Assembly (NCBI RefSeq): GCF_900013425.1
Contig: NZ_FBXK01000005.1
Location: forward strand, 1,674,001 to 1,738,000
Direction: 5' to 3'
DNA from: Sphingobium sp. Z007
Lineage (GTDB): Bacteria > Pseudomonadota > Alphaproteobacteria > Sphingomonadales > Sphingomonadaceae
DNA length: 64,000 bases
Part shown: piece by piece, positions 30,042 through 44,010 of the stretch
Layout of the letters: each line of letters opens with the position of its first letter
How positions within the stretch are numbered: position 1 is the first letter of the stretch
Program-made: the position numbers and the translations under genes
Notes under the pieces: model-generated
The model's input: the letters and a program-made list of their open reading frames with translations, nothing else
What the model was told of the DNA's origin: nothing
The model's database searches: none

Positions 30042-30064
30042 TTTGTGTGGGTCGGAATGGGCTG

Positions 30065-30883
30065 TTATGCCCCTTTCTGGGATCGTGTCGCGGCCTCCAC
30101 TGGCGTTGCGGCTGTTTCCCCTTCTGGACTGCTTTGACGAATCTTGACGGTGCATCGGACTGCCTGCTTCGAGGTTGCAGCGGACTTCCGACAAGCGTCA
30201 ATGGCATCGCGGTTGTCGCGTTGGATGTCAGCGGACTGCACTAGTGCATTCCATGCCTCAGGGATGTCGCTCTGCATCAGCCGTGCACCTGCACCCCAGC
30301 GCGTGGATGAGCCAACCATCCGCGCCGCCATACGCTCGGGCCAGTGCCAGCTTTCCGGCATCGCGCGGGCAATGGTGCCTGGAAGGAAGGACCATAGCAG
30401 GATTCCTGCCAGCAACGCTCCGCCTGCTACCTGGTAGAGCTGCTGCCGCTGCTCGGTGGCGGTGCGCGCATGGGAGATGACGCTGCGCATCTCCTGAGCG
30501 GCGTGGCTCAAGTCGCTCCGGGCCTGACTGATCCTGTCCTGATCGCTGCGCCGCGCGGCTTCGGCTGCGGCGGCAATCCGATTGCCGATGCTGTCAGGCG
30601 TCATCTGCATCGCCGGATTACTGGCCATGGCCTTCAGGTTGTCGCTGATTGCGCCCATCCGCTTGGCCATGTCGGTCAGGGTTGCGCCATAATCGGGGAT
30701 GACAATGTCGGCGCGTTCGGCTGCGAGGTGCTGGACCGCCCGGCGCATGAGCGCCAGTTCGCCTTCAAGGCGGGCGAAGGCCTCAGCGGCGGGATCGCAT
30801 GCGACATCTGGGGCTGGCGGGTCGGGATCGGGTTCCGGCTCAAGGTCCAGGGTCAGTTCCACGTCATCCGTATCGGTATTCAT
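30065..30883 (-). CDS. DUF6118-like membrane-anchored protein of the mobilization module
   Basis: 272 residues from MNTDTDDVELTLDLEPEPDP; the longer frame to 31021 overlaps traA and is not used. An acidic Pro-rich N-terminus is followed by a helical region (AFARLEGELALMRRAVQHLA, YGATLTDMAKRMGAISDNL) and one TM segment (VAGGALLAGILLWSFLPG). The C-terminal part (ARAMPESWHWPERMAARMVG) is probably periplasmic. Found beside traA relaxase genes in sphingomonad elements; role unknown, perhaps anchoring the relaxosome. Ten bp from the traA stop, so cotranscribed. Confidence 0.65.
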   Translation of the reverse strand: MNTDTDDVELTLDLEPEPDPDPPAPDVACDPAAEAFARLEGELALMRRAVQHLAAERADIVIPDYGATLTDMAKRMGAISDNLKAMASNPAMQMTPDSIGNRIAAAAEAARRSDQDRISQARSDLSHAAQEMRSVISHARTATEQRQQLYQVAGGALLAGILLWSFLPGTIARAMPESWHWPERMAARMVGSSTRWGAGARLMQSDIPEAWNALVQSADIQRDNRDAIDACRKSAATSKQAVRCTVKIRQSSPEGETAATPVEAATRSQKGA

Positions 30884-30893
30884 CGTGTTTCTC

Positions 30894-33779
30894 CTACAGG
30901 CCCAGACCGATTGACCGGCTCCGCTCCATCGAGATGGAAGCGGCAAGGTCGCGGGCCAGATCGCGACCGAGTTCTGTCTTGATGCCCAGCTCGCGGGCGC
31001 GGCTGCGCAGCAGGGATTCAACCTGCGCGTCGCGCTCCAGCCCCTTCGCCATGTCCGTCATGCGGTTTGTGAGCCTCTGCGCGCCCTTGCTGTCGCCATC
31101 GCGCTGCATCGCCTGACGCGCCTGCCCAAGCCGCTGCCAGTCGCTGACAAAGCGGTCTGCACGCTGAGTGGGATCGACGCGGATTTCAGCTTCGAGCTGC
31201 ATGGCCCGGATCGCGCCCTGGCTGCGACCATCGGCGGCCTCACGGGCCAACGAGGGTTGGCGCTGCAAGGCGCTGGCGAGGTCGGCTGTGCCATGGGGCC
31301 GGATTGCGTCGAGCGCCTTTCCGGCCTTCTCCAGCGCGTCGCGCTGGTGTGGCAGGATCGGCAATCCCTGCTCGCGCATTTGTCCGATATCAGCGGCGGC
31401 GCGAGCGTAGCGTTCGACGGCCCGGCGCTGATCGGAAAGACCAACCTGTTCGGTGGGCAGCGCTTCGAGCCGGTTGGCCTGCGGACGGAAGCCTGCGAAG
31501 ATCGACTTCGCCCGTTCCGGCAATTGCCGGGCGATCTCCACGATACGTTCGCGGAAGGTGATGCCGCGCCGTTCGGCGAACTGCTGTTCGGGTTTGTAGT
31601 CGCTCGCCATGTCCTTGCCGCGCTCGCGGCTGAGCGTGCGGACAAGTTTGGACTGATCGGCGAAGTCATCGCGCCCATAATGCAGGGCAAGGCCATCACG
31701 GTGGCGGGACAGCGCGACATAGGCCCCGTGGCTGTCCATCCCCGGCGTTGCCAGCACATGTGTGCGGTCCACTGTCATGCCCTGCGCCTTGTGGATCGTC
31801 GCGGCGTAGCCATGATCGAGGTGAGCATAGTCTTTTGTGTCGAAGGCAACGTTGCGGCCATCGTCGGTGCGCACGGCCATGCGCTGCGGCGTCACCTGCT
31901 CAATGGTGCCCAGTGTGCCATTCTTGACGCCCAGGCACCGCTCATTGCGCAGGAACATGATGCGGTCGCCGCTGGCGAACTGGCGCTCGCCGCGCTCGGC
32001 GCGGATGGTCACGTCGTCGCCCAGCTCGCCACTGGTGCGCAGCTTTCCGCGCGCCGCGTCATTGAGTTCCCGCACCTCGTCATTGGTGTGGGTGAGGATG
32101 ATCCGCGTATCACCGGGGCTGGCCTGCCGGTCGCGATTCCAACGCTCGATCAGCTCGCCACGCGCCGCCTCCCGCATCTCCGCAAAATGCACCATGCCGC
32201 GTTCGCCATAGGCCTGGATGGCTAAGCCTGTGCGCCCTGTAGCGAGATGACGGGTGGCATCCTGCTGCCAGCCTTCGTGCTGACGGCGGACCTCACTGAT
32301 TTCGACGCCGCCGTGCCGTTCATGGACCGCGCGAAAGGCTGCTCCGGCTTCGATGGCCTGAAGCTGCTGCGGGTCGCCGACGAGGACAACTTTCGCGCCA
32401 GCATTGGCGGCATGGGAGAGGACGCGCTCCATCTGGCGCGTGCCGACCATGCCTGCTTCGTCGATGACCAGCACATCGCGCGACGTGAGCAATTCGCGGC
32501 CCTGGCCCCATTGATGTTCAAGGCTGGCGATGGTGCGCGAGGCAATGCCCGAACCGTGCTCCAGCCCCTCGGCGGCAATGCCGGACAGCGCGGCACCGCG
32601 AACGGTATAGCCCGCGCTCTCCCATGCCTCGCGCGCGACGCCCAGCATCGCGCTCTTGCCGGTCCCAGCATAGCCGACAATGACACTGAGGCCGCGCCCA
32701 TCGGTGACATGCTCGAATGCTGCGCGCTGCTCGCCGGATAGCACCATACCGCGTTCCGTAGCGAGCGCTAGCGCTCCTTCCCGGCCACGATCTTCGACCT
32801 GATGCCGCTCGCGTTCCGCCAGCAGTTCCGATGCGCGACCAAGCCGCTGCTCGGTCTCGATCATCTGACGCGATGTGAAACGCTCTTCGCCGCGTCCGTT
32901 CTTGCCCAGTGCGACAAGGTCGGATGATCCGCGAACCGCGTTCATCGCCAAATCGAATTGCTCTTTCCCGTCGCTGTGCCGGTGCACGAACATGGCAAGG
33001 TCGCGGTTCGTGAAGGTGGCCTGGCTGTGCGTGATCGCGTCGAGCGCGACAGCGGGATTGGCGATAATCCGCTCGCCATTGCGCTGTGCGACAGCGCGGT
33101 GTTCCTCGATCCGCTCGGCCTCAAGCCCGCGCACGCCCATGCGCGATGCGGCGGGACCGATCTTGTCCTGCGGCTCCAGCGGGATGCCTTGCGCCTCCAG
33201 GCTGCGGTGATCGATCCGCGCGTCGATATCGAGTTCTGCGAGGCGCTGGTTGACATGCTCGGCCCAGCGCTCGCGCCATTGCTCGACCAGTTCGGCCTTG
33301 TTCCAGTCGCGCACCTTCGGGCCGAACCCGTCTTTGCCGACTCCGCGCATGGTGAGCATGACATGCGCGTGGGGCTTGGGCTGGCCGTCTGCGCCAATAT
33401 CCCAATGGACATTGAGATCGGCAATCATGCCCTTTTCGACGAATTCGGCCTCGGCAAACTCCCGTGCCAGTTCGATGCCCTGTTCCTTTGTCAGCTCGCG
33501 CGGAATGGCGAATTCGACCTCGCGGGCAAGCTGCGCGTCCTTGCGCTTCTCGGCGGCTTCGACCGCGTTCCAGAGTTTTTCGCGGTCGGCGAATTCCTCC
33601 GGCGCGCCTTCCGGCAGCAGCACTTCGGAATGGACGACCCCGTCCTTGTTGGTGAAGTCATGATCGCGGTCGAGCCGTTCGTCGTGCAGCCGCTCAGCCC
33701 CGCGATAAGCTGCGGCGGCCACGGCGCTGCGCCCGCTCGACCGGCTGATGACTTTGACGGAGAGGTGGAAGATCGCCAT
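30894..33779 (-). CDS. traA: Ti-type conjugative relaxase/helicase TraA
   Basis: 961 residues from MAIFHLSVKVISRSSGRSAV; an open frame continues 13 codons upstream but this start matches the MobA/MobL family. The N-terminal relaxase (about 1-230) holds the histidine metal site in PHAHVMLTMRGV. A RecD-like helicase follows: Walker A VGYAGTGKSAMLG, Walker B VLVIDEAGMVGTRQM, GDPQQLQAIEAG and the late HGYAATIHKAQGMT. The C-terminus is helical. TraA nicks oriT and unwinds the strand for transfer. Divergent from the traC/traD-like genes across the predicted oriT, as on Ti plasmids. Confidence 0.93.
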   Translation of the reverse strand: MAIFHLSVKVISRSSGRSAVAAAAYRGAERLHDERLDRDHDFTNKDGVVHSEVLLPEGAPEEFADREKLWNAVEAAEKRKDAQLAREVEFAIPRELTKEQGIELAREFAEAEFVEKGMIADLNVHWDIGADGQPKPHAHVMLTMRGVGKDGFGPKVRDWNKAELVEQWRERWAEHVNQRLAELDIDARIDHRSLEAQGIPLEPQDKIGPAASRMGVRGLEAERIEEHRAVAQRNGERIIANPAVALDAITHSQATFTNRDLAMFVHRHSDGKEQFDLAMNAVRGSSDLVALGKNGRGEERFTSRQMIETEQRLGRASELLAERERHQVEDRGREGALALATERGMVLSGEQRAAFEHVTDGRGLSVIVGYAGTGKSAMLGVAREAWESAGYTVRGAALSGIAAEGLEHGSGIASRTIASLEHQWGQGRELLTSRDVLVIDEAGMVGTRQMERVLSHAANAGAKVVLVGDPQQLQAIEAGAAFRAVHERHGGVEISEVRRQHEGWQQDATRHLATGRTGLAIQAYGERGMVHFAEMREAARGELIERWNRDRQASPGDTRIILTHTNDEVRELNDAARGKLRTSGELGDDVTIRAERGERQFASGDRIMFLRNERCLGVKNGTLGTIEQVTPQRMAVRTDDGRNVAFDTKDYAHLDHGYAATIHKAQGMTVDRTHVLATPGMDSHGAYVALSRHRDGLALHYGRDDFADQSKLVRTLSRERGKDMASDYKPEQQFAERRGITFRERIVEIARQLPERAKSIFAGFRPQANRLEALPTEQVGLSDQRRAVERYARAAADIGQMREQGLPILPHQRDALEKAGKALDAIRPHGTADLASALQRQPSLAREAADGRSQGAIRAMQLEAEIRVDPTQRADRFVSDWQRLGQARQAMQRDGDSKGAQRLTNRMTDMAKGLERDAQVESLLRSRARELGIKTELGRDLARDLAASISMERSRSIGLGL

Positions 33780-33808
33780 GACGGCAATCCATCTACGCCA
33801 TGAGCGCC

Positions 33809-33839
33809 ACGTCGGCACGACGTATAAGCGCGCCCTCCC
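33809..33839. other. Candidate origin of transfer (oriT) with nick region
   Basis: In the 172-bp divergent gap between traA and traC. A perfect inverted repeat ACGTCG-GCA-CGACGT (33809-33823) directly precedes ATAAGCGCGCCCTCCC (33824-33839). Hairpin followed by TAAG(N)GCGCCCT is the layout of RSF1010/Ti-type (MOBQ-like) oriT sites, whose nick falls at the GCG/CCC junction. Position between divergent tra genes supports it; nicking is inferred. Confidence 0.7.
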
Positions 33840-33951
33840 ATGATAAAATCCTGCTCGGGACTATCTCGTATCAAGCCGTCTCGACGACTCTACAGCATTG
33901 GGAGACCATCGATATTATCATCAGTGCATCACCTCTCAATGGAGAACTTCA

Positions 33952-34251
33952 ATGCGTAAACCCCGTGACTTTGATTCGGAACTGAAAGCGCTCGCCGACA
34001 AGGCGAGGCAACTGAAGGAACGCCGCGTGCAGCAGCTCGGCGAACTGGTGATCGCCACCGGGGCCGATGCGACCGACGCGGAAACGCTGGCCGGTGCGCT
34101 GCTCGTCATCGCGGAAACCAGCGAAGCCCAACGGAAGGAGGCGTGGCGCAAGCGCGGCGCTGTCTTCTTTCAGAGCAAGACGCGCAAACGTGGCGACGGA
34201 ACTCAAGGCCAGCCGGATGGCACTCTCCCGCTTGACGGCGGCGCGGCATAG
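33952..34251 (+). CDS. TraC-like conjugal transfer accessory protein
   Basis: 99 residues from MRKPRDFDSELKALADKARQ; TGGAGAA precedes the ATG. The helix LKERRVQQLGELVIATGADA resembles the small TraC/MobC-like proteins encoded beside Ti oriT, which help the relaxase open the nick site. Rich in Lys/Arg, no membrane segment. The gene overlaps the next one. Symbol withheld because this small family is easily confused with TraD. Confidence 0.7.
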   Translation: MRKPRDFDSELKALADKARQLKERRVQQLGELVIATGADATDAETLAGALLVIAETSEAQRKEAWRKRGAVFFQSKTRKRGDGTQGQPDGTLPLDGGAA

Positions 34252-34501
34252 GCTTGAGGCAACAAAGGCACGAACCGACATGCGCGAATGGCAGGTCAAG
34301 CGGCGCGAGCGGACGCGACAACTGATCGAACTCGGCGGCCTGGTCGTGAAGGCTGGGCTGGTTGAACTCGCCGACGATGATCGCGCTACGCTCTACGGCG
34401 CGTTTCTCACCGTCGCGGCCAAACTGCGGGGCGAGGAACGGGAAAAGGCGCTGGTGTTGTGGAAACGCAAAGGCAAGCGGGCATTTGAAGAGAGTAACTG
34501 A
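34217..34501 (+). CDS. traD: TraD-like conjugal transfer accessory protein
   Basis: 94 residues from the ATG at 34217 (MALSRLTAARHRLEATKART), with AAGG ahead; a GTG at 34190 is another possible start. The core RRERTRQLIELGGLVVKAGL is the hallmark of TraD of Ti-like plasmids. Overlaps the upstream TraC-like gene by 35 bp in another frame. On Ti plasmids traG follows, but here the mobilization module stops and the oppositely oriented cargo operon ends 156 bp further on. Confidence 0.75.
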   Translation: MALSRLTAARHRLEATKARTDMREWQVKRRERTRQLIELGGLVVKAGLVELADDDRATLYGAFLTVAAKLRGEEREKALVLWKRKGKRAFEESN

Positions 34502-34656
34502 ACCCAGACCGCGCAGTAGCACTGCAAAGGCGGTTACATGTGTTTCAGGCATCACCAGACTATGCGCCCCTAGTTGCGCCAGCAAAACCGGCAAATGGCG
34601 CAGCTGCTCACGGGTCGCACTCCACCGTGAATAAAATCGCACGAACGGGCGGCAGA

Positions 34657-35595
34657 TCAATGTTCGATGGATTCGACCCTTACTCGCCGCTCGTTCAGGC
34701 GAATGGGAATGCGATCCGTGGGTGCCGCTGCCACTTTTGCGCGCCCAACGTCGCCGGACACGGATGGCTTTCTTGTGCCCGCGTCGCCGGTGCCTTTCGA
34801 CCGTTCGACAAGCTCCCCTCCGCGCACCCGCGTGACTCTCTCGGCCACAAATTCCTTCCGTTCGGTCTGGAACCCGCGCATGCACCGGACCCGCGCTGCT
34901 GGGTCGGATGTGCGGCACACATCGACAACCTGATCCTGCAACCAGTACGCGATGGCGTCAGGTCGCGATGCCAACAGGAATTCCACCCGGCGGTTCCAGC
35001 CCATGTTGGTATCGCTGGTATTGGGATAAAGCGGTACGCTTTTGCCGAACCCGATGGTCCACAGCGGTGTCGGCCGCTTCTTGGCACTCTCCAGAATACG
35101 CGCAACCGATCGAGCACGCTCGATCGAGAGGTTGTGATTGTACACCTCCCCCCCCCGGCTGTCGGCATGACCAGCGATGAACATGCTGACATCGGGCACG
35201 TCCCCGTCGACCATCGCCGCCATGGCCTGGATGATCGGGATCGCCGAAGGCTTTACCTCGCTCGAAGCCGTGTCGAAAAAGGTATTCTCTGGGAACACGA
35301 TACGCAGCACCGGAATGTCGTAGTAGAAATCTGAAGGCATGAAGCGCCGCGGCACGACATAGCTGTGGAACTCCGGCTCGGGATAGACGCCGAACGTTTG
35401 GGCGAGGCGCTTCAGGCGCGAAAATCTCGTCTGGTGCTCCAGAGCCAAGGCTTCCTCGTCGGAAAGGTAAGTGATCTGCTGCGCTGATGCCGGAACCGAT
35501 ACGACGACGGTCGGGGCAAGTGCGAGCATGCACGCGGCCATTAGTAGCAAGCGCGGCCCGAGTTCACGGATGCGTTTAAAAACCTGCATAGGCAC
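34657..35595 (-). CDS. OmpA-domain periplasmic protein of the cargo operon
   Basis: 312 residues. Signal peptide (LLLMAACMLALAPTVVVSVPASA, cut before QQITY), a linker, then an OmpA-like peptidoglycan-binding domain at about 95-215: PENTFFDTASSEVKPSAIP, MFIAGHADSRGGEVYNHNLS, IERARSVARIL and NMGWNRRVEFLLA, including the Asp and Arg that bind diaminopimelate. The ~95 C-terminal residues have two Cys pairs (DVCRTSD, RVRCMRG) and a basic tail. A GTG start with AGGA about 8 bp upstream is used; an ATG two codons on is possible. Last of five overlapping or tightly spaced genes (20-bp overlap upstream). It should fix the encoded complex to the cell wall. Confidence 0.8.
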   Translation of the reverse strand: MPMQVFKRIRELGPRLLLMAACMLALAPTVVVSVPASAQQITYLSDEEALALEHQTRFSRLKRLAQTFGVYPEPEFHSYVVPRRFMPSDFYYDIPVLRIVFPENTFFDTASSEVKPSAIPIIQAMAAMVDGDVPDVSMFIAGHADSRGGEVYNHNLSIERARSVARILESAKKRPTPLWTIGFGKSVPLYPNTSDTNMGWNRRVEFLLASRPDAIAYWLQDQVVDVCRTSDPAARVRCMRGFQTERKEFVAERVTRVRGGELVERSKGTGDAGTRKPSVSGDVGRAKVAAAPTDRIPIRLNERRVRVESIEH

Positions 35596-35962
35596 CGCGC
35601 ACTTCCTGGATCAGCATCTGCACGTTGGGCGAAGAAGCATTCTGCAATTCGATCACGTACCAGCCCTGAACTCCTTCCGACTGGGTGATGCCGTACGTAA
35701 CAGTTGCACGTGACGCGCTTGCCACCACTTCGGCCCTGCAGGTGCGTGCGTTGTAGCTTGAGTTCAACTCCTCGAAGCCACTGACCGTCATGATCGCCGC
35801 CAGCCGGACCGGATCTGGACGGGTGTCCGCCGGAACAGCCAACTGTCGCATGAGGCCTAGTCCGGTCTCGTCACAGGGCGGTGTCATGTTGAATTGCGAG
35901 CACCCGCAAAGCAGCATTGTCGCAACGCCGCCCAAGGAGAGCGCACCGAGCTTTGGGATCAT
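35576..35962 (-). CDS. Small lipoprotein of the cargo operon
   Basis: 128 residues. MIPKLGALSLGGVATMLLCG leads to lipobox LCGC. The mature protein has two more Cys (PPCDET, ARTCRAEV) that could form a disulfide, and a beta-rich end (VQGWYVIELQNASSPNVQML). No family recognised. Its ATG overlaps the upstream gene's stop by 4 bp and its end overlaps the OmpA-domain gene, so translation is probably coupled and the products work together. Confidence 0.72.
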   Translation of the reverse strand: MIPKLGALSLGGVATMLLCGCSQFNMTPPCDETGLGLMRQLAVPADTRPDPVRLAAIMTVSGFEELNSSYNARTCRAEVVASASRATVTYGITQSEGVQGWYVIELQNASSPNVQMLIQEVRGAYAGF

Positions 35963-36666
35963 ATCACCACGTGTCCGGAGTTGATCTTCTGCTTCTTGAA
36001 TGCATCACTGGTCACCCAAGTGTCGCCATTGAGACAGGCTATGTCGGTTCCGTCTGAGACGACCTGACCGTCGACGTCATAGACCACCCGGCTCTTGCGG
36101 CACACCAGTTCCCGCGAGGACTCGAACGAGGCTTTGACCAGCTTGGGCGCATCGGCTGCAGCCTGGCGCGATAGGATTTGGTCCTTGGGATACCAGCTGT
36201 CGCCAATGCGGCACTGGTCATCGCGGCGGCATTCGATCGAACCTGTGCTGGTCATTAGCAACTTGCCGTCACCCTCCGGCATAACCGCCAACTGCACCGT
36301 GGCGCCTTGGTCGGTAGACCAAGTATCCTGCTGCTGTGTGTTGCTGTTCAGCGCCGCAAGCTGTGCGTTGCGAACACGCTCCTTGTCCTTGTCGCTTGCC
36401 GCCTTCATCATTAGCGCGCAGACTAGCCCGCCTAACCCTGCGCCCACCAGCGCGCCATCCTTGCCCTTTATCGCGGCACCAAGACCTGCCCCCAGAAGTA
36501 CCGCAACGACGCACTTGCCTATGGCCTTCTCGACGAAGGTTTTGCCCGCAAGCTTCTGGCCTTGGGCATTGTAGGTCGCCTGTGCCAGCGCCTGTTCGGA
36601 CGCAACCGGGTTGAGTATGGAGACACCGATGACGAGCGCCGCCGTCATTTTCCATTTTTGCAGCAT
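35959..36666 (-). CDS. Glycine-zipper membrane protein of the cargo operon
   Basis: 235 residues; GAGGGGGA precedes the ATG. Signal sequence to about residue 29 (ALAQATYNA cut region), then a glycine-zipper hairpin at about 50-90: VVAVLLGAGLGAAIKGKDGA and LVGAGLGGLVCALMM. Such segments oligomerise in membranes. The remainder is a soluble, Cys-containing domain (GSIECRRDDQCRIGDSWYPK; RELVCRKSRVVYD; IACLNGDTW). Periplasmic or outer-membrane placement is likely. No family recognised beyond the zipper. Fifteen bp from the upstream lipoprotein gene. Confidence 0.7.
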   Translation of the reverse strand: MLQKWKMTAALVIGVSILNPVASEQALAQATYNAQGQKLAGKTFVEKAIGKCVVAVLLGAGLGAAIKGKDGALVGAGLGGLVCALMMKAASDKDKERVRNAQLAALNSNTQQQDTWSTDQGATVQLAVMPEGDGKLLMTSTGSIECRRDDQCRIGDSWYPKDQILSRQAAADAPKLVKASFESSRELVCRKSRVVYDVDGQVVSDGTDIACLNGDTWVTSDAFKKQKINSGHVVI

Positions 36667-36681
36667 GATATCCCCCTCGAT

Positions 36682-37944
36682 TTAGTTCGAACGCTTCGCG
36701 GTGAAGCTGATATCGCCAGTTTCACCGACGTAGATGATCGGGTCGTAGATCCGTCCCTTAAGCGTCTGTCCGTCGTCCTTGCCGCTGATAAGGCGCATAC
36801 CCCCGAACGGTCCGTCGACGAGAGGCTGCGGCTGCATACCGGGCTCGGTGCGCCAGCGCTGTCCCAGCGTCCCTTCCGGATCGCCGCGCAATTCGCAGCC
36901 GTCCGAGGCGCAGGCAAACTGCCCGGCTATCGGCGTGCGCCGCTGGCCCTTGGAACCGGTGTAGGAGATCCACGCTCCGACCAGCGAGCCATCGGCAGCG
37001 GTTGGCAAGCGCAGTTCCATAGGGCTCATTACTTCGGGCGAAAGCGGCAACTGGCCAGTGTAGCTGTTGATCCGCACCGGAGCCTTGGCCAGCGAATCCG
37101 GCGTGAACGCGCCGACATGACGCAGGTCCGCGCCGCTGCTCAGGAACCAGGCATCGAGGAACGCGCGCTGCGTATTGCCGACGGTGCCGCCGCCCGGCAC
37201 GAGATAGAGTTCCGACATGCCTAGATTGGTCTGGGCAGTCTGCGCCTGATCGAAGCCCGCCTGACGGGCCTGTACGAAGTCCTCGGGCACCGACGACAGC
37301 GCTCCGCCCGGATTTGCAAAGACGATCAGACGACGGATCTGGCCAGCCGTGCCTGCGCCCGGCCCGATCACCTTGATAGTGCGTGCGAAGTTTGAATCGT
37401 TAAAACTGTCGCCGCCCCGGCCGCCACCGGTGCCGGCCACCTGAGCCACCATCAGCACCGCCTTGGTCAGGAAGCTGCTACGCGCCTCTTCGAGCTTCGA
37501 TCCCATATCAGACCCGAAATAGGAATCCATCGCGCCGTCTTCGCCCTTGGTCTTGCGCTCGGCCAGTTCCTCCTTCGACATGGCCGGAAGGCATCCTGAG
37601 AAGATCGGACTTAGCCCGCCGGTCTGCGCATTGGCCAAGGCGATCGTCAGATGCTCGCGCGGCGCCATTGCCCCGGTATCCAGCGCGCGCGTGGCATCGG
37701 CGAGGCCGACCACCACTGCGAACAGCTCGGCATTTTCGGTCTTGAACGTCTCAGGCTTCGAAGGCTTCACCGAGTTTTCATCGATCACCAGCACCGTCTC
37801 GCGCAGGGCCGGCTTCAGCCCCGGCATGGTGCAGAACGCATCGAGCTTGACCGCTTCGCCCGGCCCAGTGGCACCGACCTTGTCGATACCATCATCGCAG
37901 CCACCCAGCATCGCGAAGGCCGCAAATATAAGCACTTTACGCAT
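36682..37944 (-). CDS. Large lipoprotein of the cargo operon
   Basis: 420 residues with lipobox LGGC right after MRKVLIFAAFAM; GAGAGGA precedes the start. ALRETVLVIDENSVKPS looks like the first strand of a von Willebrand A-type domain, and GQIRRLIVFANPGGALSS and NLGMSELYLVPGGGTV could be later strands, but the DxSxS metal motif is incomplete. GTGGGRGGDSFNDS is a flexible loop. The C-terminal third is beta-rich with a possible disulfide (FACASDGCELRG). No confident family. Ten bp from the upstream membrane protein gene. Confidence 0.7.
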   Translation of the reverse strand: MRKVLIFAAFAMLGGCDDGIDKVGATGPGEAVKLDAFCTMPGLKPALRETVLVIDENSVKPSKPETFKTENAELFAVVVGLADATRALDTGAMAPREHLTIALANAQTGGLSPIFSGCLPAMSKEELAERKTKGEDGAMDSYFGSDMGSKLEEARSSFLTKAVLMVAQVAGTGGGRGGDSFNDSNFARTIKVIGPGAGTAGQIRRLIVFANPGGALSSVPEDFVQARQAGFDQAQTAQTNLGMSELYLVPGGGTVGNTQRAFLDAWFLSSGADLRHVGAFTPDSLAKAPVRINSYTGQLPLSPEVMSPMELRLPTAADGSLVGAWISYTGSKGQRRTPIAGQFACASDGCELRGDPEGTLGQRWRTEPGMQPQPLVDGPFGGMRLISGKDDGQTLKGRIYDPIIYVGETGDISFTAKRSN

Positions 37945-37954
37945 GTCGATCCTC

Positions 37955-39253
37955 TCAGATGTCGTAGCCTAGCGCGATCTGGAGCGAGGCGTACTCGTCA
38001 CCTGTCAGCATCGCGTGGTCCGCAATCGGCAGCAGCATTTCATGCGAACCGCCGGGATAGCGGAAGATCCGCGCCTTCGACCGGGGCCCCATCGCCTGCA
38101 GCAGCGCGTGGCGGTATTCGATCAGCACGCCAACGATTTCCTGATCCTTGTTGACGATCTGGTTCGCCCATTCGCGCAACTCGCCATGACGCGGGCCGCG
38201 TGCGGTCGCATCTTGGTTCACCGCTGCCTTGACGTCGGCACTGAGGCCGTGCGCCAGATCTTGCTGGACTAGCCCGCGCTCTTTTTTAAGTTCCTCCATG
38301 CGCTTGCTCATCTTGCGCAGTTTCTGGTCCTGTTCGGCAAAAATCGGGTTGGGATCGTGCATCGTATAGGCGACCAGCAGGCCGACGATGTAGGCGACGA
38401 CATTGCCCAGCAGCATGAAAACGATGCCGCCGAACAGCGAAGGCGCGGCAACGCCGAGGATCGAGGCTTCGACGATGTATTGGCGCAGGTAGTAGTAGCG
38501 CGCTCCACCGACCATCAGCAAAGCGATCGAGAGCAGCACCGTGCCGATCGCAAGCCTGCGCAGCGCATCATTGCGGCGGTTCTCCACTGCCATTTCGGCG
38601 CTTTCCTGCGGCCGGAAATGAAAGGACCACTGGCGGAACACCACGCCATGGAAGTGCGCCGAAAAGCCGACGCCAAGGCCGACCGCCATGGTCGCACCTG
38701 TCGCCAGAAAGGGGCTGGTGATGTAGGGAACCTTCATGAAGCTTTCGAAATTGATGAAAGCCTCAAGCAACACGATCAACAGAAGGGCCATGACATAGAG
38801 CCACTTCCTGGTGCGCACTGGTTCGCGGCCCATCTTGGCGCGCAAGTTCTTGTAGCTTTCGAGGGTCTGGTCCTGATCGATCACTTCAGTCTTGTGCTTG
38901 TCACTAAAGGCCGTCGCCTTGTCGATCGAGGCATTGATCGTCTTCTGCCGGGCAGCATCGCGAACATTTTCGAGATAGATGCCGGCGGCAGCGCCGGTGT
39001 CACGGCTGTCTGCTTCGAATGCATTCTTCATTTCGGAAATAGCGGCAACGCGCGAAGCTGCAATATTTTTGCCGAACCAAGCCGCCATTCCTTGTGTCAG
39101 CAGGCCAGGCTGACGCGCATTGTAGAGGTTTCCAGCGCCGGTAAGGCCGATCGTTTCCGCTTTGGCCTCGTTCGCGACCGAACCCAGAAGGGCCGAGAGC
39201 AAAGGGCTTCCGTCAGAAACGCTGAGATTTACATAGTCTACTACGGCTTTCAT
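37955..39253 (-). CDS. Four-TM membrane protein with cytoplasmic coiled coil, cargo operon
   Basis: 432 residues from MKAVVDYVNLSVSDGSPLLS (ATG 39253, GGGGGA ahead); the frame is open a little further. An N-terminal region of ~150 residues without a signal peptide precedes TM1-2 (WLYVMALLLIVLLEAFINF; LATGATMAVGLGVGFSAHF), then TM3-4 (LAIGTVLLSIALLMVGGARY; GGIVFMLLGNVVAYIVGLLV). A coiled coil (QKLRKMSKRMEELKKERGLV) and a C-terminal domain follow, ending LPIADHAMLTGDEYASLQIA. Probably the inner-membrane core of the complex. No family recognised. First of the five tightly spaced genes. Confidence 0.72.
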   Translation of the reverse strand: MKAVVDYVNLSVSDGSPLLSALLGSVANEAKAETIGLTGAGNLYNARQPGLLTQGMAAWFGKNIAASRVAAISEMKNAFEADSRDTGAAAGIYLENVRDAARQKTINASIDKATAFSDKHKTEVIDQDQTLESYKNLRAKMGREPVRTRKWLYVMALLLIVLLEAFINFESFMKVPYITSPFLATGATMAVGLGVGFSAHFHGVVFRQWSFHFRPQESAEMAVENRRNDALRRLAIGTVLLSIALLMVGGARYYYLRQYIVEASILGVAAPSLFGGIVFMLLGNVVAYIVGLLVAYTMHDPNPIFAEQDQKLRKMSKRMEELKKERGLVQQDLAHGLSADVKAAVNQDATARGPRHGELREWANQIVNKDQEIVGVLIEYRHALLQAMGPRSKARIFRYPGGSHEMLLPIADHAMLTGDEYASLQIALGYDI

Positions 39254-39443
39254 TGGTCCCCCGCTGACGAATCGCCCCTGTATCAGTATGGCTACCATTC
39301 GCGGAGAATTGCGTGCTTGTGAATACGCTGTATGTCGTTTTGGGTGTGTTTCTAAATTTCCCCGCGCTTATCGGAGGACATTTGATTTGACGGTACTGTC
39401 ATTGTGGTTGCAAATTCTGTGCGAATTGGGAGTACGACGTTAA

Positions 39444-40211
39444 TCAGTCGCTTGGCTCAACCGCTGTCTGGAGACCTCGGCCACGTGCTTCGACTGCTGC
39501 CTGAGCCAGGAAATTCTCGATGGCGGCAACGGAGTGCTGACGACATAGGTTGAGGGCTTCGACTTCCGTGAGGCAGTCGATCCCGTAGCCGAATTGGCTT
39601 TGCCAGAAGTCGTCAAGTGTTTGGCCATACTGCTCCCATAGCACAATTCGGGTCGCGGGCTGCAATGAAATTATACGCGCGTCCCGGCTCTCGGTCAGGG
39701 TCGTGATCGCGATGACCTCTCCACCCCGTGCCTCGACGTAGCCGCGCAGGTTGGCGAGCGTACCGCCAAGGCCGACGTGGTCGTCCACGAGCAAATAGTT
39801 TCCGCCCGGTTGGACCTGTCCTTCAAACGTCGCAGGGGTGACCAACCGCTGAAATGCCGGGGCACGGGTATGCCCAACCTTGTTCGTCTGGACAATTTCA
39901 CCGGCGATCACCGGCAAGCCGAGCTTGCTCCCTAGAACTTGGGCCATCGCATCGGGGATTGCGTTGAAACCGGTCAATTCGTCAGCGACCACCGGCAGAA
40001 GAAGGGTAGGGCGGCCTGCAACCAGTGCCTTGATGCGAGCCAACCCGTCAGGAGAGAGGAGGTCCGCGGCCAGCATCAGAGCTGCGTCTGCTTCACCGCT
40101 CTTTGCCGCGGCGTATCCTGGGTGGCTGTCACGTGTGCGAACGTCTGTGTGGATGACCACGTCAGGAAAGTTCGCAGGCCAAGGAAGCCGGGTAGGAAAT
40201 TCGTCATTCAT
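39444..40211 (-). CDS. Type I phosphoribosyltransferase-domain protein of the cargo block
   Basis: 255 residues from MNDEFPTRLPWPANFPD; the open frame upstream to 40304 has no ribosome binding site. NYLLVDDHVGLGGTLANLRG is the PRPP-binding loop of type I phosphoribosyltransferases (two acidic residues, then a G-G-T turn), preceded by the flexible-loop region NKVGHTRAPAFQRL. Substrate base unknown; not a standard pyr, apt, hpt or ComF enzyme by sequence. Encoded in the same direction, 190 bp upstream of the five-gene envelope operon, and may be cotranscribed. Cytoplasmic. Confidence 0.75.
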   Translation of the reverse strand: MNDEFPTRLPWPANFPDVVIHTDVRTRDSHPGYAAAKSGEADAALMLAADLLSPDGLARIKALVAGRPTLLLPVVADELTGFNAIPDAMAQVLGSKLGLPVIAGEIVQTNKVGHTRAPAFQRLVTPATFEGQVQPGGNYLLVDDHVGLGGTLANLRGYVEARGGEVIAITTLTESRDARIISLQPATRIVLWEQYGQTLDDFWQSQFGYGIDCLTEVEALNLCRQHSVAAIENFLAQAAVEARGRGLQTAVEPSD

Positions 40212-40304
40212 CGACCCAACATGCCTATTGGCTATCTGAAAAGCCAGAACTGGATCGTGCACCTGCGTGAACCGCAAGGCGAAGGCTGATTCGCGCGCAA
40301 GCAT

Positions 40305-40586
40305 CGCTAGTTTTGGCGCAAATATCCGCCGCTTGAGCGCAGATTTAGCGGCATGATGCCGCGTCTGCTCGGATCACGTCACAAAAATTCCGCCTAAAGG
40401 CACCCCGTATTTGCGTCCGCTGTCTTCTCTACTCTTCCGTATCCGTGCCTATCCTTCCGCAAGTTATTCTATCCGCATTTGCGATGGCCGTGTCAGGGAC
40501 TGCGAATTCTGTTGCGCTGGATGCCTCATAGCGAAATTCTTGGATCAGGGGGCACCAGTAACTGCCAACGGATGGAAGCAAGTCCC
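40305..40586. promoter_or_regulatory. Divergent control region between cargo block and AlpA
   Basis: 282 bp with no supported gene. It separates the leftward phosphoribosyltransferase-envelope block from the rightward alpA-xis pair, so promoters for both should lie here. The words GGCGCAAATATCCGCCGC and GAGCGCAGATTTAGCGG form a loosely repeated, AT-richer stretch near 40313-40352 that could be an operator. Role is inferred from position only. Confidence 0.35.
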
Positions 40587-40793
40587 ATGTCCAACTCTGA
40601 CAAGATAATCCGCCTCAAGACCGTTCTCGCCCGCACCGGCCTGTCCCGCTCCACCATGTATCGCAAGATCGCAGAGGGGACTTTCCCGTCCCAAGTAAAA
40701 ATCAGCGTTCACGGTGCGGGCTGGCGGGAATCCGCCGTGAACCGCTGGATTGATGATCCGGTATCTTATCGGAATGAGAGCGCGGCGCAGTGA
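40587..40793 (+). CDS. AlpA-family transcriptional regulator
   Basis: 68 residues from MSNSDKIIRLKTVLARTGLS, with GGAAG about 10 bp upstream; longer in-frame starts lack a binding site. The winged helix-turn-helix (TGLSRSTMYRKIAEGTFPSQ) followed by GWRESAVNRWIDD is the AlpA/phage regulatory protein pattern. AlpA-type proteins switch on excision genes of integrated elements. It overlaps the next gene by 4 bp (GTGA), so both are made together. Confidence 0.85.
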   Translation: MSNSDKIIRLKTVLARTGLSRSTMYRKIAEGTFPSQVKISVHGAGWRESAVNRWIDDPVSYRNESAAQ

Positions 40794-40984
40794 CAGCGCC
40801 GCCTCCGGTCGAGCCGATCTGCGTAAAGGTCAATGACGCTGCGCGCATGATCGGCGTCGGTCGTACCAAGCTCTACGAGCTGATTGCGTCAGGCGAAATC
40901 GAGGCCATCAAGCTCGGCAAGTCAACGCGCATCACAACCGCCAGTTTGCACGAACTAATCATGCGGCAACGCGGGCGGGAATAG
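40790..40984 (+). CDS. Excisionase-like helix-turn-helix protein
   Basis: 64 residues from a GTG. KVNDAARMIGVGRTKLYELI and SGEIEAIKLGKSTRITTASL form the MerR-like HTH_17 fold used by small excisionase and recombination directionality factors. With AlpA it probably controls excision of the element. The last 26 bp overlap, on the opposite strand, the 3' end of the interrupted integrase gene, so the two genes are convergent and share sequence. Confidence 0.8.
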   Translation: MTAPPPVEPICVKVNDAARMIGVGRTKLYELIASGEIEAIKLGKSTRITTASLHELIMRQRGRE

Positions 40985-41107
40985 TCTCGCCTGCCACCTG
41001 ATCTGCTGCCGGGGCGCGATTGCCCAGATAGTCCGCCCATTGCGACATCAGGGTCCGGCGCTTCTCGAAGAAATCGGTTCGGCGGTAGGCGGCTTCGACC
41101 TTGTTAG
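40959..41107 (-). pseudogene. Tyrosine integrase, C-terminal fragment cut off by IS1380
   Basis: Read on the minus strand this gives NKVEAAYRRTDFFEKRRTLM and runs on to a TGA at 40959-40961. EAAYRRTD carries the catalytic tyrosine of P4-type integrases. It continues the frame broken at 42754 once the insertion sequence and one TTAG copy are removed (ALAHKLPN joins NKVEAAY). No start signal of its own is visible, so it is not expressed as a useful product. Confidence 0.85.
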
Positions 41108-42753
41108 CCCGCCTTATTCACCAAAAGTGTCCTGAAGGGTTGGCGGGAGTGGCGTAAGCCTCTGATCTGAATTAGGAACTGGGTGTCTAAGCCGAACCTG
41201 CCGCAGGGCAGAAAATGCCACGGGCCACACCCGCCATGAACGATGATATCGCAAGCTCATTTGGATTCCCAGCAGTCGGCCGCAAGAAAATCACAGCTGC
41301 GTTCGACGGTGGCCGGCTTACCTCGGATGGCGGTGTTCTACTGCTTGCACAGGCCGAGCGCGCGATGGGGATTTGCCAGCGCCTGGCGGCTTGTATTGCC
41401 GATCCGCGCGATCCAGCGCGGGTGATCCATCGCCTGGATGACATTCTGCGTGCCCGTGTGTTCGCGATTGCGTGCGGCTATGAGGATGCCGATGATCTCG
41501 ATGCTCTGCGCGACGATCCAGGCTTCCGCCTGGCGCTCGGCAAGCTGCCGGAATCGGGCGCGGGGCTGGCCAGCCAACCGACGATGAGCCGGTGGGAAAA
41601 TGCACCGACTACGCGCGAACTGGCCAGCATGATGGCCGCGATGATCGACATCTACTGCGCCAGCTATCCCGCCCCTCCGACAGCGGTCACGCTGGATATC
41701 GACGACACGTGCGACGTCGTGCATGGCTATCAACAGCTCTCGTTCTGGAACGGGCATCATGGGGAGCGCTGCTTCCTACCGATCCATATCTACGACACCG
41801 CGACCGGCAGGCCGGTGGCCATGCTGCTGCGCACAGGCAAGACGCCTTCTGGAAAGGAGGCGGCGGGGCACATCCGACGCCTGGTGCGTCACCTGCGCCG
41901 TAATTGGCCCGATACCCACATCACTATCCGCGGCGACGGGCACTATGGTCGACCCGAGGTCATGGCCTACTGCGATGCGGCCCGCGTCGATTACGTGTTC
42001 GGCCTGCCCACCAATTCAGCGCTGCGCGCCGATCCCGCCATTGTTGCGGTCGCCGATGCCTGCGCGGTCAAGCGCGCCCAGCGTCAGTGTCCCGTCCTGC
42101 GCAACTATGCCGAGACCCGCTATGGGGCAAAGACCTGGAAGTGCCAGCGTCGCGTCGTTGCACGGATCGAGGCCAGCACGCTGGGCATGGACATCCGCTA
42201 TGTCGTCACCTCGTTGGCAACAGGATCGGCCGAGCACATCTACGACACGCTCTACTGCGCGCGTGGTCAGGCCGAGAACCTGATCAAGCGCCACAAGTCC
42301 CAGCTCGCCAGCGACCGAACCTCGTGCCGCTCGGCCAATGCCAATCAGATGCGCCTGATACTGCACACTGCCGCATACTGGCTGCTATGGCGCATCCAGC
42401 AGGCGATGCCCAGGACCGCTGCTCTGGCAAGCGCGGAGTTTACCACCTTGCGCCTGCGGCTGCTCAAGGTCGCTGCGCGCGTCGTAGAAAGTGCTAGCCG
42501 CATCCGCATTGCCTTCGCTTCCGCCTGTCCGGATGCCGACCTGTTCCGCGCCCTCGTTCTCCGGCTGAAGCCTGCGCCGACGTAGCCCATGCGGCAGCGC
42601 CGCAGAACTCCGAGCCCAGCCCTTCAACCCGAAAAGCCCATCAATCCGAATGCGGTGAAACAAACGCCAGCGATGCCGGTCGTCCGCGCAATACAGCCAG
42701 CCGCAGCAAATGCCCAGAGCGGGCCCGAAACCGAGCGTCGTGAATAAGAGAGG
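41108..42753. mobile_element. IS1380-family insertion sequence, complete
   Basis: 1646 bp. Terminal inverted repeats CCCGCCTTATTCACCA (41108-41123) and, reverse-complemented, CCTCTCTTATTCACGA (42738-42753) match at 12 of 16 positions. It is flanked by the 4-bp direct repeat TTAG at 41104-41107 and 42754-42757. It carries one transposase gene and interrupts the integrase. Intact ends and target duplication suggest a fairly recent insertion. Confidence 0.9.
41215..42585 (+). CDS. IS1380-family transposase
   Basis: 456 residues, the usual size for the family. AAFDGGRLTSDGGVLLLAQAE is the N-terminal signature; TLDIDDTCDVVHGYQQ and ITIRGDGHYGRPEVMAYCD hold the DDE-type acidic residues, and RGQAENLIKRHKSQLASDRT near the C-terminus is the conserved E-containing region. 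An internal ATG eight codons on (41236) is a possible start. The frame is undamaged, so the element may still move. Confidence 0.93.
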   Translation: MPRATPAMNDDIASSFGFPAVGRKKITAAFDGGRLTSDGGVLLLAQAERAMGICQRLAACIADPRDPARVIHRLDDILRARVFAIACGYEDADDLDALRDDPGFRLALGKLPESGAGLASQPTMSRWENAPTTRELASMMAAMIDIYCASYPAPPTAVTLDIDDTCDVVHGYQQLSFWNGHHGERCFLPIHIYDTATGRPVAMLLRTGKTPSGKEAAGHIRRLVRHLRRNWPDTHITIRGDGHYGRPEVMAYCDAARVDYVFGLPTNSALRADPAIVAVADACAVKRAQRQCPVLRNYAETRYGAKTWKCQRRVVARIEASTLGMDIRYVVTSLATGSAEHIYDTLYCARGQAENLIKRHKSQLASDRTSCRSANANQMRLILHTAAYWLLWRIQQAMPRTAALASAEFTTLRLRLLKVAARVVESASRIRIAFASACPDADLFRALVLRLKPAPT

Positions 42754-43805
42754 TTAGGCAGCTTGTGGGCGAGAGCCTTATCGGCGACTTCCTTGGGAAA
42801 GTCGGTGCATTCGGCGGCCCAGTCCGTGAAGGTAGATCGGAAGCCGTGCACTGTGATGCTGGCGAAACCATCGTCGCGCAGAAGCTTGGTCATGGTCATG
42901 TCGCTGATCGGCTTCTTGCCATCGTTGGAAAAGACCAAGCCTGTATCGCTGGTCCGCTCGTTCCAGCGTTTGCGCAGCAGTGCCACAACCGGTGCCGAAA
43001 GCGGAACGATGTGGGTTTCGCCCGCCTTCATCCGTTTAGCGGGAATGGTCCATACCGCCTTTTCGAGGTCGAACTCGGTCCATACCGCAAGGCGCGTCTC
43101 GTTGGACCGGACGGCGTTGTAGATCGTGAAGCGCAAGGCGTCGCGTCCCGTCGTTGGGGAGGCAGCGGCAAGCTTCTGCATCAGCGCCGGGACATCGGAA
43201 TAGGGCATGGCCTCCATATGCCCCCGCTTGTCGTTCTGACGCGGCAGCCCCTTGCGCACCGAACGCAACGAAACCTCTTCCGGCACCCAGCCTTTCACAT
43301 GCGCGAAATCGAGCACTACGCCGATGCGCTGGAGCAAGCGTCGCGCTGTTTCCGGTATCTCCAGCCATATCGGGGACAGCGCCTCAACCACGCAGGCGCT
43401 GTCAACCTTGTCGACCGGCTTCTTGCCGATGCGCGGAAAAAGGTGGCGCTCGAACCCGGATAGCCAGCGGGCATGATGCCCGTCCTTCCATCCGTCCCCC
43501 AAGGTTTCATGGCACGAGCGGGTTGCGGCTTCGAAGGTCGGTATGATCTTCCGCGCCTTGCGTCGCTCGGCGACAGGATCGAAACCGTCACGAACCCGGC
43601 GGCGCAATTCCGCTGCCGCTGTTCTGGCATCGGTCAGCGAGACATCATGCGCCGATCCCAGCCCATAGTCGCGGCGATGGCCTTTCAACTGCATGCGAAG
43701 CACCCAGGTGCGCGCGCCGCTGGGCTTTACGACAAGGCACAAGCCCCTGCCATCGACATGGCGACCGGGCTTCGCATTCTTCACTTTCAATACTGTCAGC
43801 GCCAT
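42754..43805 (-). pseudogene. Tyrosine integrase (P4 type), N-terminal part, disrupted by IS1380
   Basis: About 350 residues of a ~398-residue integrase. N-terminal arm-binding DUF4102-like domain (MALTVLKVKNAKPGRHVDGR), then the catalytic domain with Arg in YNAVRSNETRLAVW, the HxxR motif VHGFRSTFTDWAAE and a late His in DKALAHKLPN. The frame then reads into IS1380 sequence to a stop at 42624, adding ~43 foreign residues and losing the catalytic Tyr, which lies at 40959-41107. Site-specific excision by this gene should therefore be impossible. Confidence 0.9.
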
Positions 43806-43859
43806 CAGGTTCGAGTCCCTGTCAGGGATTCATACCGCCAAAAACTGGGGTATTTGGTC

Positions 43860-43877
43860 CCACAATCGTTCCCACAT
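43860..43877. repeat. Putative integrase arm-type site, right end
   Basis: CCACAATCGTTCCCACAT matches the site at 30024-30041 in 17 of 18 positions and in the same orientation. It lies 118 bp inside the right core and between it and the integrase start. Symmetry of placement suggests recognition by the integration machinery; this is inference. Confidence 0.5.
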
Positions 43878-43995
43878 ATCAGCGGGAATTCAGGCGATTC
43901 AGGGCGACCGACCGCGAACACGTTACAAGATAAATCGCTGATTTTACAGAGTAGTTGGAGACGCTCTGAAATTGCCTGAGACGAAAGTTATAGCG

Positions 43996-44010
43996 CCTCC
44001 TCCGCTACCA
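43996..44010. other. Right attachment site (attR core)
   Basis: CCTCCTCCGCTACCA, identical to the last 15 bases of tRNA-Met at 29950-29964. The rest of a tRNA is not present here, so this is the duplicated 3' fragment created by integration. Chromosomal sequence resumes at 44011. Confidence 0.88.

Follow-up and report, generated by a model that had tools for sequence, protein, structure and literature searches.

The window, i.e. the whole stretch of 64,000 nucleotides analysed here, contains an operon of five envelope genes, which is the cargo of an integrative mobilizable element. The unit to which these genes belong consists of four core genes, coding for a membrane protein (TM), an exported protein with a lipobox (LIP), an exported glycine-zipper protein (GZ) and an exported OmpA-type protein (OMP), plus a small lipoprotein (SLP) that is seen in one other locus. 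It is not the six-gene module of the original prediction: the five envelope genes fill a cargo slot and four of them are conserved together, but the sixth, a phosphoribosyltransferase (PRTase) gene, is part of the element backbone. Four proteins of obscure role appear as one conserved unit across distant bacteria, with a sister form in which some genes resemble those of Zorya. A joint function of the four core genes is probable, and well supported by their conservation; the envelope-spanning system that they would form is apparently undescribed so far.

The mobilizable element and its cargo slot

The element, of about 14 kb, is an integrative mobilizable element inserted in tRNA-Met: an integrase, att repeats at the tRNA gene and a relaxase are all found. 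Its features are the following.

29888 to 29964, plus strand: tRNA-Met, the integration target; its 3' end (29950 to 29964) is one att repeat
30894 to 33818, minus strand: Ti-type relaxase TraA (MobQ); NCBIfam TIGR02768 948 bits for a cut-off of 590, MobQ 266 for 200
33898 to 34251, plus strand: small mobilization-type accessory protein, backbone, presumably MobC-like; identity 83% in L039 and 89% in L040
34492 to 39441: variable cargo slot, which holds exactly the five envelope genes in the window
34657 to 35595, minus strand: OMP, exported, OmpA-type peptidoglycan-binding domain at residues 106–198
35576 to 35962, minus strand: SLP, small lipoprotein, lipobox-like LCGC
35959 to 36666, minus strand: GZ, exported glycine-zipper protein
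36682 to 37944, minus strand: LIP, exported, LGGC lipobox; N-terminal vWA-like part and C-terminal Cys-containing part
37955 to 39253, minus strand: TM, membrane protein of 432 aa, with a soluble N-terminal part, then about four membrane segments and a C-terminal part that resembles a coiled coil
39444 to 40304, minus strand: KfrC-like type I PRTase, element backbone, outside the module
40479 to 40793, plus strand: AlpA-like regulator, backbone, syntenic in L028, L037, L039 and L040; annotated AlpA in L037
40790 to 40984, plus strand: small HTH/excisionase-like protein, backbone
41106 to 42752: insertion sequence that interrupts the integrase gene in its 3' part; it has a transposase ORF at 41215 to 42585 (plus strand)
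42753 to 43805, minus strand: integrase, interrupted; residues 1–351 align with relatives, and the insertion sequence truncates the 3' end
43996 to 44010: second att repeat, a 15-base copy of the 3' end of tRNA-Met

One integrase relative is annotated as a site-specific integrase. The insertion sequence, which we take to be of the IS1380 type, is missing at the syntenic point of L028, L037, L039 and L040.

The idea that the envelope genes are cargo on a mobilizable element is backed by the att repeats and by the precise limits of the slot. DNA homology of the backbone to the sister elements L039 and L040 ends at 34490–34491 and restarts at 39433–39442, and the sister elements keep the same backbone around a slot whose content varies: L040 has efflux-type genes there and L039 a GIY-YIG-like gene (judged by eye in both cases), and L037 has annotated tet(G)/floR. 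In L037 the slot is viewed from one side, the fetched stretch having yielded no relaxase side. The cargo of the slot is interchangeable. In the window, the slot contains no enzyme or obvious effector. Now that it is delimited, this slot of a sphingomonad mobilizable element is a place to seek further protective genes.

The PRTase gene is part of the backbone in L028, L037, L039 and L040, beside the integrase and AlpA genes; the genes near it in the sister elements code for AlpA, an HTH protein and an integrase, and kfrB lies next to it in L038. It occurs without the envelope module in L039 and L040 (and likewise in L037, within the stretch covered). Since, in addition, no PRTase match is present in the stretches of any of the 12 module loci described below, the PRTase is not a member of the module, and the KfrC-like backbone and the cargo can be cleanly told apart.

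The domain assignment of the PRTase is based on a Pfam PF00156 match below cut-off (13.3 bits for 26.3), the presence of the acidic PRPP motif LVDDHVGLGGT, and solved PRT chains that match residues 167–205 at E 0.0023. Among the plasmid matches listed, one relative stands at 86% and 29 others have an identity of 39–44% over 81–86% of the sequence; many of these are annotated as KfrC, stable inheritance protein or phosphoribosyltransferase. The identity to the KfrC of LC623925 (and others) is 44% over 84%. KfrC of RA3 contains a type I PRT domain, according to the accessible part of its description (PMC8124265). The window PRTase and the KfrC of IncP-1/IncU plasmids thus have in common this domain and a sequence relation, but the window element is integrated, and the likeness covers the PRTase only and not the envelope unit.

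The candidate function of the PRTase as a ShosT-type toxin was rejected, the similarity being marginal (E 0.0048 and 0.08). This weak similarity and the position of the gene, on the same strand and 190 bp upstream of TM, are what speaks for a six-gene module in which the PRTase would make a nucleotide signal or a toxin for the envelope complex. We consider it extremely improbable and already contradicted: in L037, L039 and L040 other genes adjoin the PRTase, which is backbone in four elements, has annotated KfrC relatives on plasmids and is missing from the module loci.

The envelope operon and its conservation

The predicted layout of the operon is matched to the base by the ORF coordinates. 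From OMP to TM, the genes successively overlap by 20 bp and 4 bp and are separated by 15 bp and 10 bp; the gap of 190 bp to the PRTase is counted from the ATG at 39253, where the relatives of TM begin, the TM ORF itself extending to 39298. Promoter and terminator patterns in the region do not rise above shuffled expectation and are uninformative regarding a separate transcript, and no RNA family was found there.

A hydropathy scan of TM calls membrane segments at residues 151–169, 230–248 and 260–295. An additional segment near 180–200 is called in relatives such as that of L007, so that about four segments are likely, in line with the four-TM protein that had been anticipated. In the first segment, E164 and N168 are invariant in 30 sequences. 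The lipobox-like LGGC of LIP and LCGC of SLP fit the lipoproteins expected, and cysteines 38, 118, 345 and 350 of LIP are invariant in 11 sequences. The OmpA-type peptidoglycan-binding protein is also as predicted, the OmpA domain of OMP scoring 49.2 bits in Pfam (cut-off 27.2) behind a signal-peptide-like N-terminus with a lipobox-like MAAC; the domain has a conserved D/R pair. The glycine-zipper label fares like that of the PRTase domain: the matches exist, but both are below the Pfam cut-offs (16.5 bits for 28.9 in the case of GZ). A plausible lipobox is seen in 7 of 12 GZ relatives. For TM, LIP and SLP, neither Pfam nor NCBIfam gives a match above cut-off, and the search of PDB sequences with TM and LIP profiles gave nothing useful.

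The N-terminal part of LIP may be described as vWA-like on the basis of weak matches. No VWA profile of Pfam matches any of 11 LIP members, VWA_2 matches one of 13 sister proteins at E 0.15, the best PDB match is ITIH4 (E 0.2), and no DxSxS (MIDAS) motif is seen by eye. L026 and L049 have short vWA-like proteins, with which plasmid searches gave nothing useful.

Homologues of TM, LIP, OMP and GZ occur together in all 12 other loci examined, from at least eight families and two classes and in three gene orders, and this co-location shows that the grouping of the envelope genes is more than chance. The co-occurrence that had been proposed as a check is thus observed in distantly related bacteria for the four core genes, but not for the PRTase, nor for SLP, whose only relative among the 12 loci is in L007. 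The count rests on a scan of all ORFs; it leaves out H3, H4 and H5 (L068, L069; annotation only) among the seven plasmid TM matches, as well as G576 and G568, which have just the TM and vWA-like genes, and G380 (E 5e-4), for which no partner gene was found. Several of the core-gene profiles include sequences that they match, the hits in L047 and L048 being independent of the profiles. The E-values of the locus scans (core genes, fusion, sister operons, accessory genes) were computed on small sets. The stretches of L007 and L048 reach a short way beyond the unit, and the GZ match of L006 is spread over two overlapping ORFs. Divergence is correlated among the core genes (r 0.79–0.93). In L057, a glycine-zipper/OmpA fusion adjoins a membrane protein and a vWA-like gene.

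Some loci have additional genes next to the unit. In L003 (N. resinovorum) it is followed by hxsA, D, B and C (HxsB 578 bits, cut-off 370), in three related Rhizobium plasmids it adjoins an SNase-type gene, and in L004, L005 and L020 one further protein comes after OMP. It may be that the unit is an apparatus for the maturation, export or display of a modified peptide or a periplasmic enzyme, with accessory genes that vary by lineage. This is improbable, considering that HxsB/HxsC are found in only one of the 12 loci and that the slot of the window has no exporter ATPase, no SNase or Hxs gene and no partner of this kind; relatives of the accessory genes tested occur in few module loci.

The distribution of the unit is patchy: apart from the TM of the window itself, five strong matches were found in 385 genomes of the class. 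Six of the seven plasmids with a TM match are predicted to be conjugative, and at least one copy is chromosomal (that of G675, on a contig of 4.8 Mb). Carriage on a mobilizable element and on conjugative plasmids would suit surface or entry exclusion, in which the element bars related elements or plasmids from the host by altering the envelope. Against this hypothesis, which is unlikely, close sister elements lack the unit, the G675 copy sits on a large contig, and the exclusion systems known to us consist of one or two proteins. No TM relatives were found in viral contigs or phage records, so that the unit is not supported as a phage module.

Sister operons and known systems

Plasmids of Paracoccus, Rhizobium and Sinorhizobium carry sister operons (TM, vWA-like, ZorA-like and OmpA genes). 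Profile comparison relates TM to the sister TM family (Prob 99.2, E 6.7e-20) and LIP to the sister vWA-like family (Prob 98.6, E 1.2e-15). The sister vWA-like gene is present in 24 plasmid records; in the seven loci examined, the TM/vWA-like pair always precedes two genes that resemble ZorA (weakly) and ZorB. The resemblance to ZorB is clear in one locus and weak in others; E-values include 5.4e-25 in L060 and 7.4e-32 in L058, where an SNase is fused to the ZorB-like protein. According to the record annotations, SNase-type genes lie near four of the seven sister operons. The best PADLOC E-values of the three ZorA-like genes tested are 1.5e-6, 9.6e-6 and 5.5e-5, partly over a coiled coil. The PDB test of the third and fourth genes is weak as well: a solved ZorA-type chain (E 0.017) ranks below unrelated helical proteins, and a MotB-like chain is matched at E 0.0047.

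The sister operons and the window unit share adjacent, profile-homologous TM and vWA-like genes and an OmpA-type gene. They differ in that the third gene of the sister operons has a weak MotA/ZorA resemblance, no glycine-zipper gene is annotated in them, and their vWA-like protein lacks the C-terminal part of LIP.

Regarding Zorya itself, the window unit likewise combines an OmpA-type peptidoglycan-binding partner with an inner-membrane protein that has a coiled coil. On the contrary, the slot has neither a MotA-like ZorA nor an effector of the nuclease or helicase type: ZorA models do not match TM at E≤1, and neither ZorC/D nor ZorE was found in 34492–39441, the slot alone being searched. OMP matches ZorB1 at E 7.8e-10 over residues 97–221, which is the OmpA region, and its N-terminus is signal-peptide- or lipobox-like, unlike Zorya. 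No counterpart of LIP or GZ, nor the term vWA, appears in the accessible part of the Zorya description (PMC11890865). The window unit was therefore rejected as a member of Zorya. It had been proposed that the likeness is limited to the OmpA domain; the lack of a ZorA match to TM agrees with this, but the sister operons provide a further link, in which the ZorA similarity is weak.

Among the defence systems of PADLOC, the module gives nothing but marginal hits and cross-hits of its OmpA domain to ZorB, none beyond generic domains. PdsO (TIGR03789), a named OmpA-like protein, has weak hits to TM (24.0 bits, E 2.7e-5), GZ (18.9 bits, 9.7e-4) and OMP (41.5 bits, 1.2e-10), far below the cut-off of 152.2, and there is no sortase gene in the slot. 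No described family was matched above cut-off, as expected from the predicted lack of a known counterpart, and no description of the four-gene unit was found in searches of the openly licensed PMC literature, which is weak evidence of novelty. Tol-Pal offers a parallel to the envelope unit.

Possible functions of the unit

We tentatively favor the hypothesis that the unit is a motorless, peptidoglycan-anchored trans-envelope device, which perhaps protects against phage or incoming DNA. What we infer for the five-gene operon concerns complex formation, topology, sensing and defence. TM would be embedded in the inner membrane and expose its N- and C-terminal parts to the cytoplasm, the vWA-like LIP and SLP would be on the periplasmic side, OMP would bind peptidoglycan, and the glycine-zipper protein would join or perturb a membrane. 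The complex would most likely sense that the wall or membrane is disturbed, for example by the entry of phage DNA, or physically resist this; the change might be passed to TM via the conserved polar residues of its first membrane helix, and the carrier of the element would gain protection.

This hypothesis is supported by the presence of the core genes in 12/12 loci with correlated divergence, the fusion in L057, the interchangeable cargo, the profile relation of TM and LIP to the pairs that precede ZorA/ZorB-resembling genes, the plasmid that carries both operon types, the recurring SNase genes and the patchy distribution. It is weakened by the effector-free slot, which also lacks SNase and Hxs genes, the generic or marginal PADLOC matches of the module, the weak ZorA label of the sister genes, the weak vWA matches and the mostly metabolic families among the neighbours. 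The neighbourhood evidence on defence is mixed: PADLOC families are few among 121 neighbour proteins (IetA/S is among the names), these matches are not tied to loci and some, such as a DnaG-like one, may be housekeeping genes; the neighbour Pfam families are mostly metabolic among the 25 of 97 that are listed.

These metabolic families would also suit an envelope-integrity or stress-tolerance complex, in which a Pal/OmpA-like tether and a membrane protein stabilise the outer membrane or the wall against toxic compounds, with no role against phage. The components do resemble envelope proteins, efflux or resistance genes occupy the same place in two sister elements, and the G675 copy fits as well. 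This alternative is rather doubtful; patchy distribution and carriage by plasmids and elements are odd for a housekeeping tether, and it does not explain why the unit is related to sister operons that have ZorB-like and SNase genes.

Coming back to the protective device, a broader and doubtful proposal is that both operon types belong to an undescribed superfamily, in which the TM/vWA-like pair would be combined either with a ZorAB-like motor or with a motorless OmpA/glycine-zipper scaffold and with periplasmic effectors that can be exchanged (an SNase nuclease, a modified His-Xaa-Ser peptide or others), and would act on phage or foreign DNA that crosses the envelope. The motorless and the putatively motor-bearing forms allow phage protection to be compared, i.e. 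what a motor would add. Both operon types are found about 9 kb apart on a plasmid of S. fredii, where a PD-Lambda-1 match lies beside the sister operon.

The conserved envelope unit

The original prediction joined six minus-strand genes of the window into one envelope/phosphoribosyltransferase module. On the present reading they encode a membrane protein (TM), an exported vWA-like protein (LIP), a glycine-zipper protein (GZ), a small lipoprotein (SLP), an OmpA-type protein (OMP) and, 190 bp upstream of TM, a KfrC-like type I phosphoribosyltransferase (PRTase). The layout is confirmed: an ORF listing of the window returns the same coordinates and spacings. OMP is the sole product with a Pfam domain above cut-off; the PRTase and Gly-zipper Pfam matches are below it, and TM, LIP and SLP give nothing above cut-off in Pfam and NCBIfam. 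A hydropathy scan predicts about four membrane segments in TM, lipobox-like motifs are present in LIP, SLP and also OMP, and the N-terminus of GZ, read by eye, is signal-peptide-like. In PADLOC, OMP cross-hits to ZorB through its OmpA domain, and the resemblances of PRTase to ShosT and of TM to LeoB are marginal.

Relatives of TM are rare. A single-sequence search matched 2 of 396 genomes of the order (the window's own and one short, weak match). A TM profile matched 8 of 385 genomes of the class (its own, five strong, two weak) and 5 of 398 of the phylum (its own, two shared with the class search and two new, one of them from another class); seven plasmids and one Caulobacteraceae contig gave further matches. 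We fetched 12 strong loci (L003–L007, L020–L024, L047 and L048), which with the window represent, by the family numbers assigned to the genomes, at least eight families. GZ, TM, LIP and OMP are all together in 12 of 12 (all-ORF profile scan), ordered OMP-TM-LIP-GZ in five, GZ-TM-LIP-OMP in six, and TM-LIP-GZ-SLP-OMP in L007, as in the window. That the content is conserved despite the shuffled order argues for a joint function of these four core genes. The pairwise divergences of their products are strongly correlated over the 13 loci (r 0.79–0.93, a level reached by no more than 1 of 5000 label permutations), a correlation to which shared ancestry contributes. SLP occurs, among these loci, in the window and L007 only.

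Accessory genes vary with lineage. SNase-type genes adjoin the unit in three Rhizobium plasmids that are related to one another (L004, L068 and L069; Pfam-checked in L004 only), and a further protein gene follows OMP in three of the 12 loci (L004:12390-13232, L005:12396-13205, L020:12066-12989); by eye, the product of the latter has a CxSSCA motif, as in a ClpP-type fold. In one locus, N. resinovorum pSA2, hxsA-hxsD-hxsB-hxsC (radical SAM peptide modification) follow GZ (L003:12449-15661). In genome G712 (L021), about 120 bases separate the end of the four-gene unit from a tRNA-Met gene (7952-8028), the tRNA type used by the window's element.

The cargo slot and the phosphoribosyltransferase

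The mobilizable element that carries these genes has the following landmarks in the window.

29888-29964: tRNA-Met gene
41106-42752: insertion sequence interrupting the integrase gene in its 3' part, absent from all four sister stretches compared

The last 15 bases of the tRNA-Met gene are repeated at 43996-44010, and between gene and copy lie a Ti-type TraA relaxase gene, a small mobilization-type gene, the six genes, and AlpA-like, HTH-like and integrase genes. With its integrase gene broken by the insertion sequence, this copy of the element may be fixed in place. Its backbone (29947-44010) is covered by L039, from genome G130, in three stretches of 85, 89 and 92% identity; two window stretches are absent from L039, 41106-42752 and about 34492-39441, and the latter is replaced by other DNA. 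The slot borders given by L040, from genome G180 (34490 and 39433), agree to within ten bases. By eye, the slot of L039 holds a HIRAN/GIY-YIG-like protein with small membrane proteins or lipoproteins as alternative cargo (10235-12570), and that of L040 an efflux operon of OprM/EmrA/EmrB type. The Porphyrobacter plasmid pYT40 (L037) shares the integrase, HTH, AlpA and PRTase genes, after which come tet(G), floR and a gene for DHA2 efflux; in the stretch covered, the relaxase side of its slot was not found. In the window, the slot thus carries exactly the five envelope genes.

PRTase lies outside the slot and is kept with integrase and AlpA genes in L028, L037, L039 and L040. A translated search of the fetched stretches matched it in none of the 12 module loci (L007 and L048 being short on one side), and a profile scan found no core genes in L039 or L040. 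Judged by this position and distribution, PRTase is therefore element backbone, and its membership in the module is not borne out. Among 157 plasmid records of relatives, one is at 80-90% identity and 156 are below 60%; many are annotated KfrC or stable inheritance protein, and one adjoins kfrB on an IncP-typed plasmid. Protein searches (E<=0.001) returned 916 relatives of PRTase versus 43 of TM, each search scoring the roughly 8000 candidates with most words in common. For the KfrC protein of plasmid RA3, a type I PRT domain is reported; the title of that paper calls KfrC a switch between lateral and vertical dissemination (PMC8124265). What stands of the original interpretation is a real, conserved and apparently undescribed envelope unit carried as exchangeable cargo, made of four genes plus one rather than six.

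Sister operons resembling Zorya

Two weaker TM matches come from genomes G576 and G568; in both, the next gene encodes a short exported protein similar to LIP's N-terminal part (Prob 96, E 4.5e-9), and a search with this pair matched 6 of 372 class genomes, counting these two. TM-like and vWA-like genes are adjacent in G499 and G471 (TM profile E 2.9e-10 and 7.8e-4). G693 has, after a Gly-zipper/OmpA fusion, a membrane protein that does not match the TM profile and a vWA-like gene. G459 has, behind its vWA-like gene, a ZorA-like gene (best E 2.9e-8) and then a gene whose product joins a ZorB-like part to an SNase domain (ZorB2 E 7.4e-32, SNase E 9.7e-7). The G459 protein matches 24 plasmids, and in all seven examined four homologous genes follow one another: TM-like, vWA-like, a third gene and an OmpA-type gene.

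L058:2714-4726: the G459 fusion of a ZorB-like OmpA protein with SNase, at the start of a contig and adjoining the ZorA-like and vWA-like genes
Four-gene sister operons carried by plasmids of Paracoccus, Rhizobium and Sinorhizobium:
L060:5508-9812
L061:5509-10256
L062:5500-9908
L064:3444-7784
L065:3497-7842
L066:3515-8133
L067:3500-7911

By record annotation, SNase-type genes lie near four of these seven (L061, L062, L066 and L067). The three sister operons scanned with PADLOC give matches to ZorA for the third gene (E 1.5e-6 to 5.5e-5) and to ZorB for the last (E 5.4e-25 in L060, about 1e-5 in L061 and L062), with nothing beyond ZorA/ZorB-type and coiled-coil cross-hits. Against solved structures, the third-gene profile reaches a MotA/TolQ/ExbB-type chain at E 0.017, ranked behind unrelated helical proteins, and the fourth-gene profile reaches TssL (E 0.0032) and a MotB-like chain (E 0.0047). 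A 'motor' is thus no more than plausible.

Profile comparisons relate the TM family to the sister TM family (Prob 99.2, E 6.7e-20; 30 vs 11 sequences) and the LIP family to the sister vWA-like family (Prob 98.6, E 1.2e-15; 11 vs 13 sequences). Both TM alignments have an invariant E and N four residues apart; in the window's TM, the two fall within the first membrane segment. The envelope unit is distantly tied to the Zorya-resembling operons. On the Sinorhizobium plasmid pSfreNXT3b the two operon types occur together, separated by about 9 kb in which a CHAT-domain gene and an antitoxin gene lie; close to the sister operon is a strong PD-Lambda-1 match (E 5.8e-170). L056:4643-9296 has in a row TM-like and vWA-like genes and, by eye, genes for nucleotide-binding-looking, MotA-like and single-span membrane proteins; the last three have no NCBIfam match.

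Possible function

TM, LIP, OMP and GZ may form a peptidoglycan-anchored complex, which would sense or resist envelope disturbance. In the mechanism proposed for Zorya, as reported in PMC11890865, wall damage is sensed by the peptidoglycan-binding domain of ZorB, and nucleases are recruited through the ZorA rod. The window's unit likewise has wall-binding and membrane parts, but neither motor nor effector, so that, if defensive, it would need to be a barrier or a channel or to work via host factors.

A role in defence is favoured by the patchy carriage, the cargo status and the sister operons, and is weakened by a scan of the neighbourhood. At E<=1e-10, 15 PADLOC families each have a single match among the 121 proteins encoded next to the unit in the 12 loci (more than one family can hit a given protein), and the Pfam families are mostly metabolic among those listed (25 of 97).
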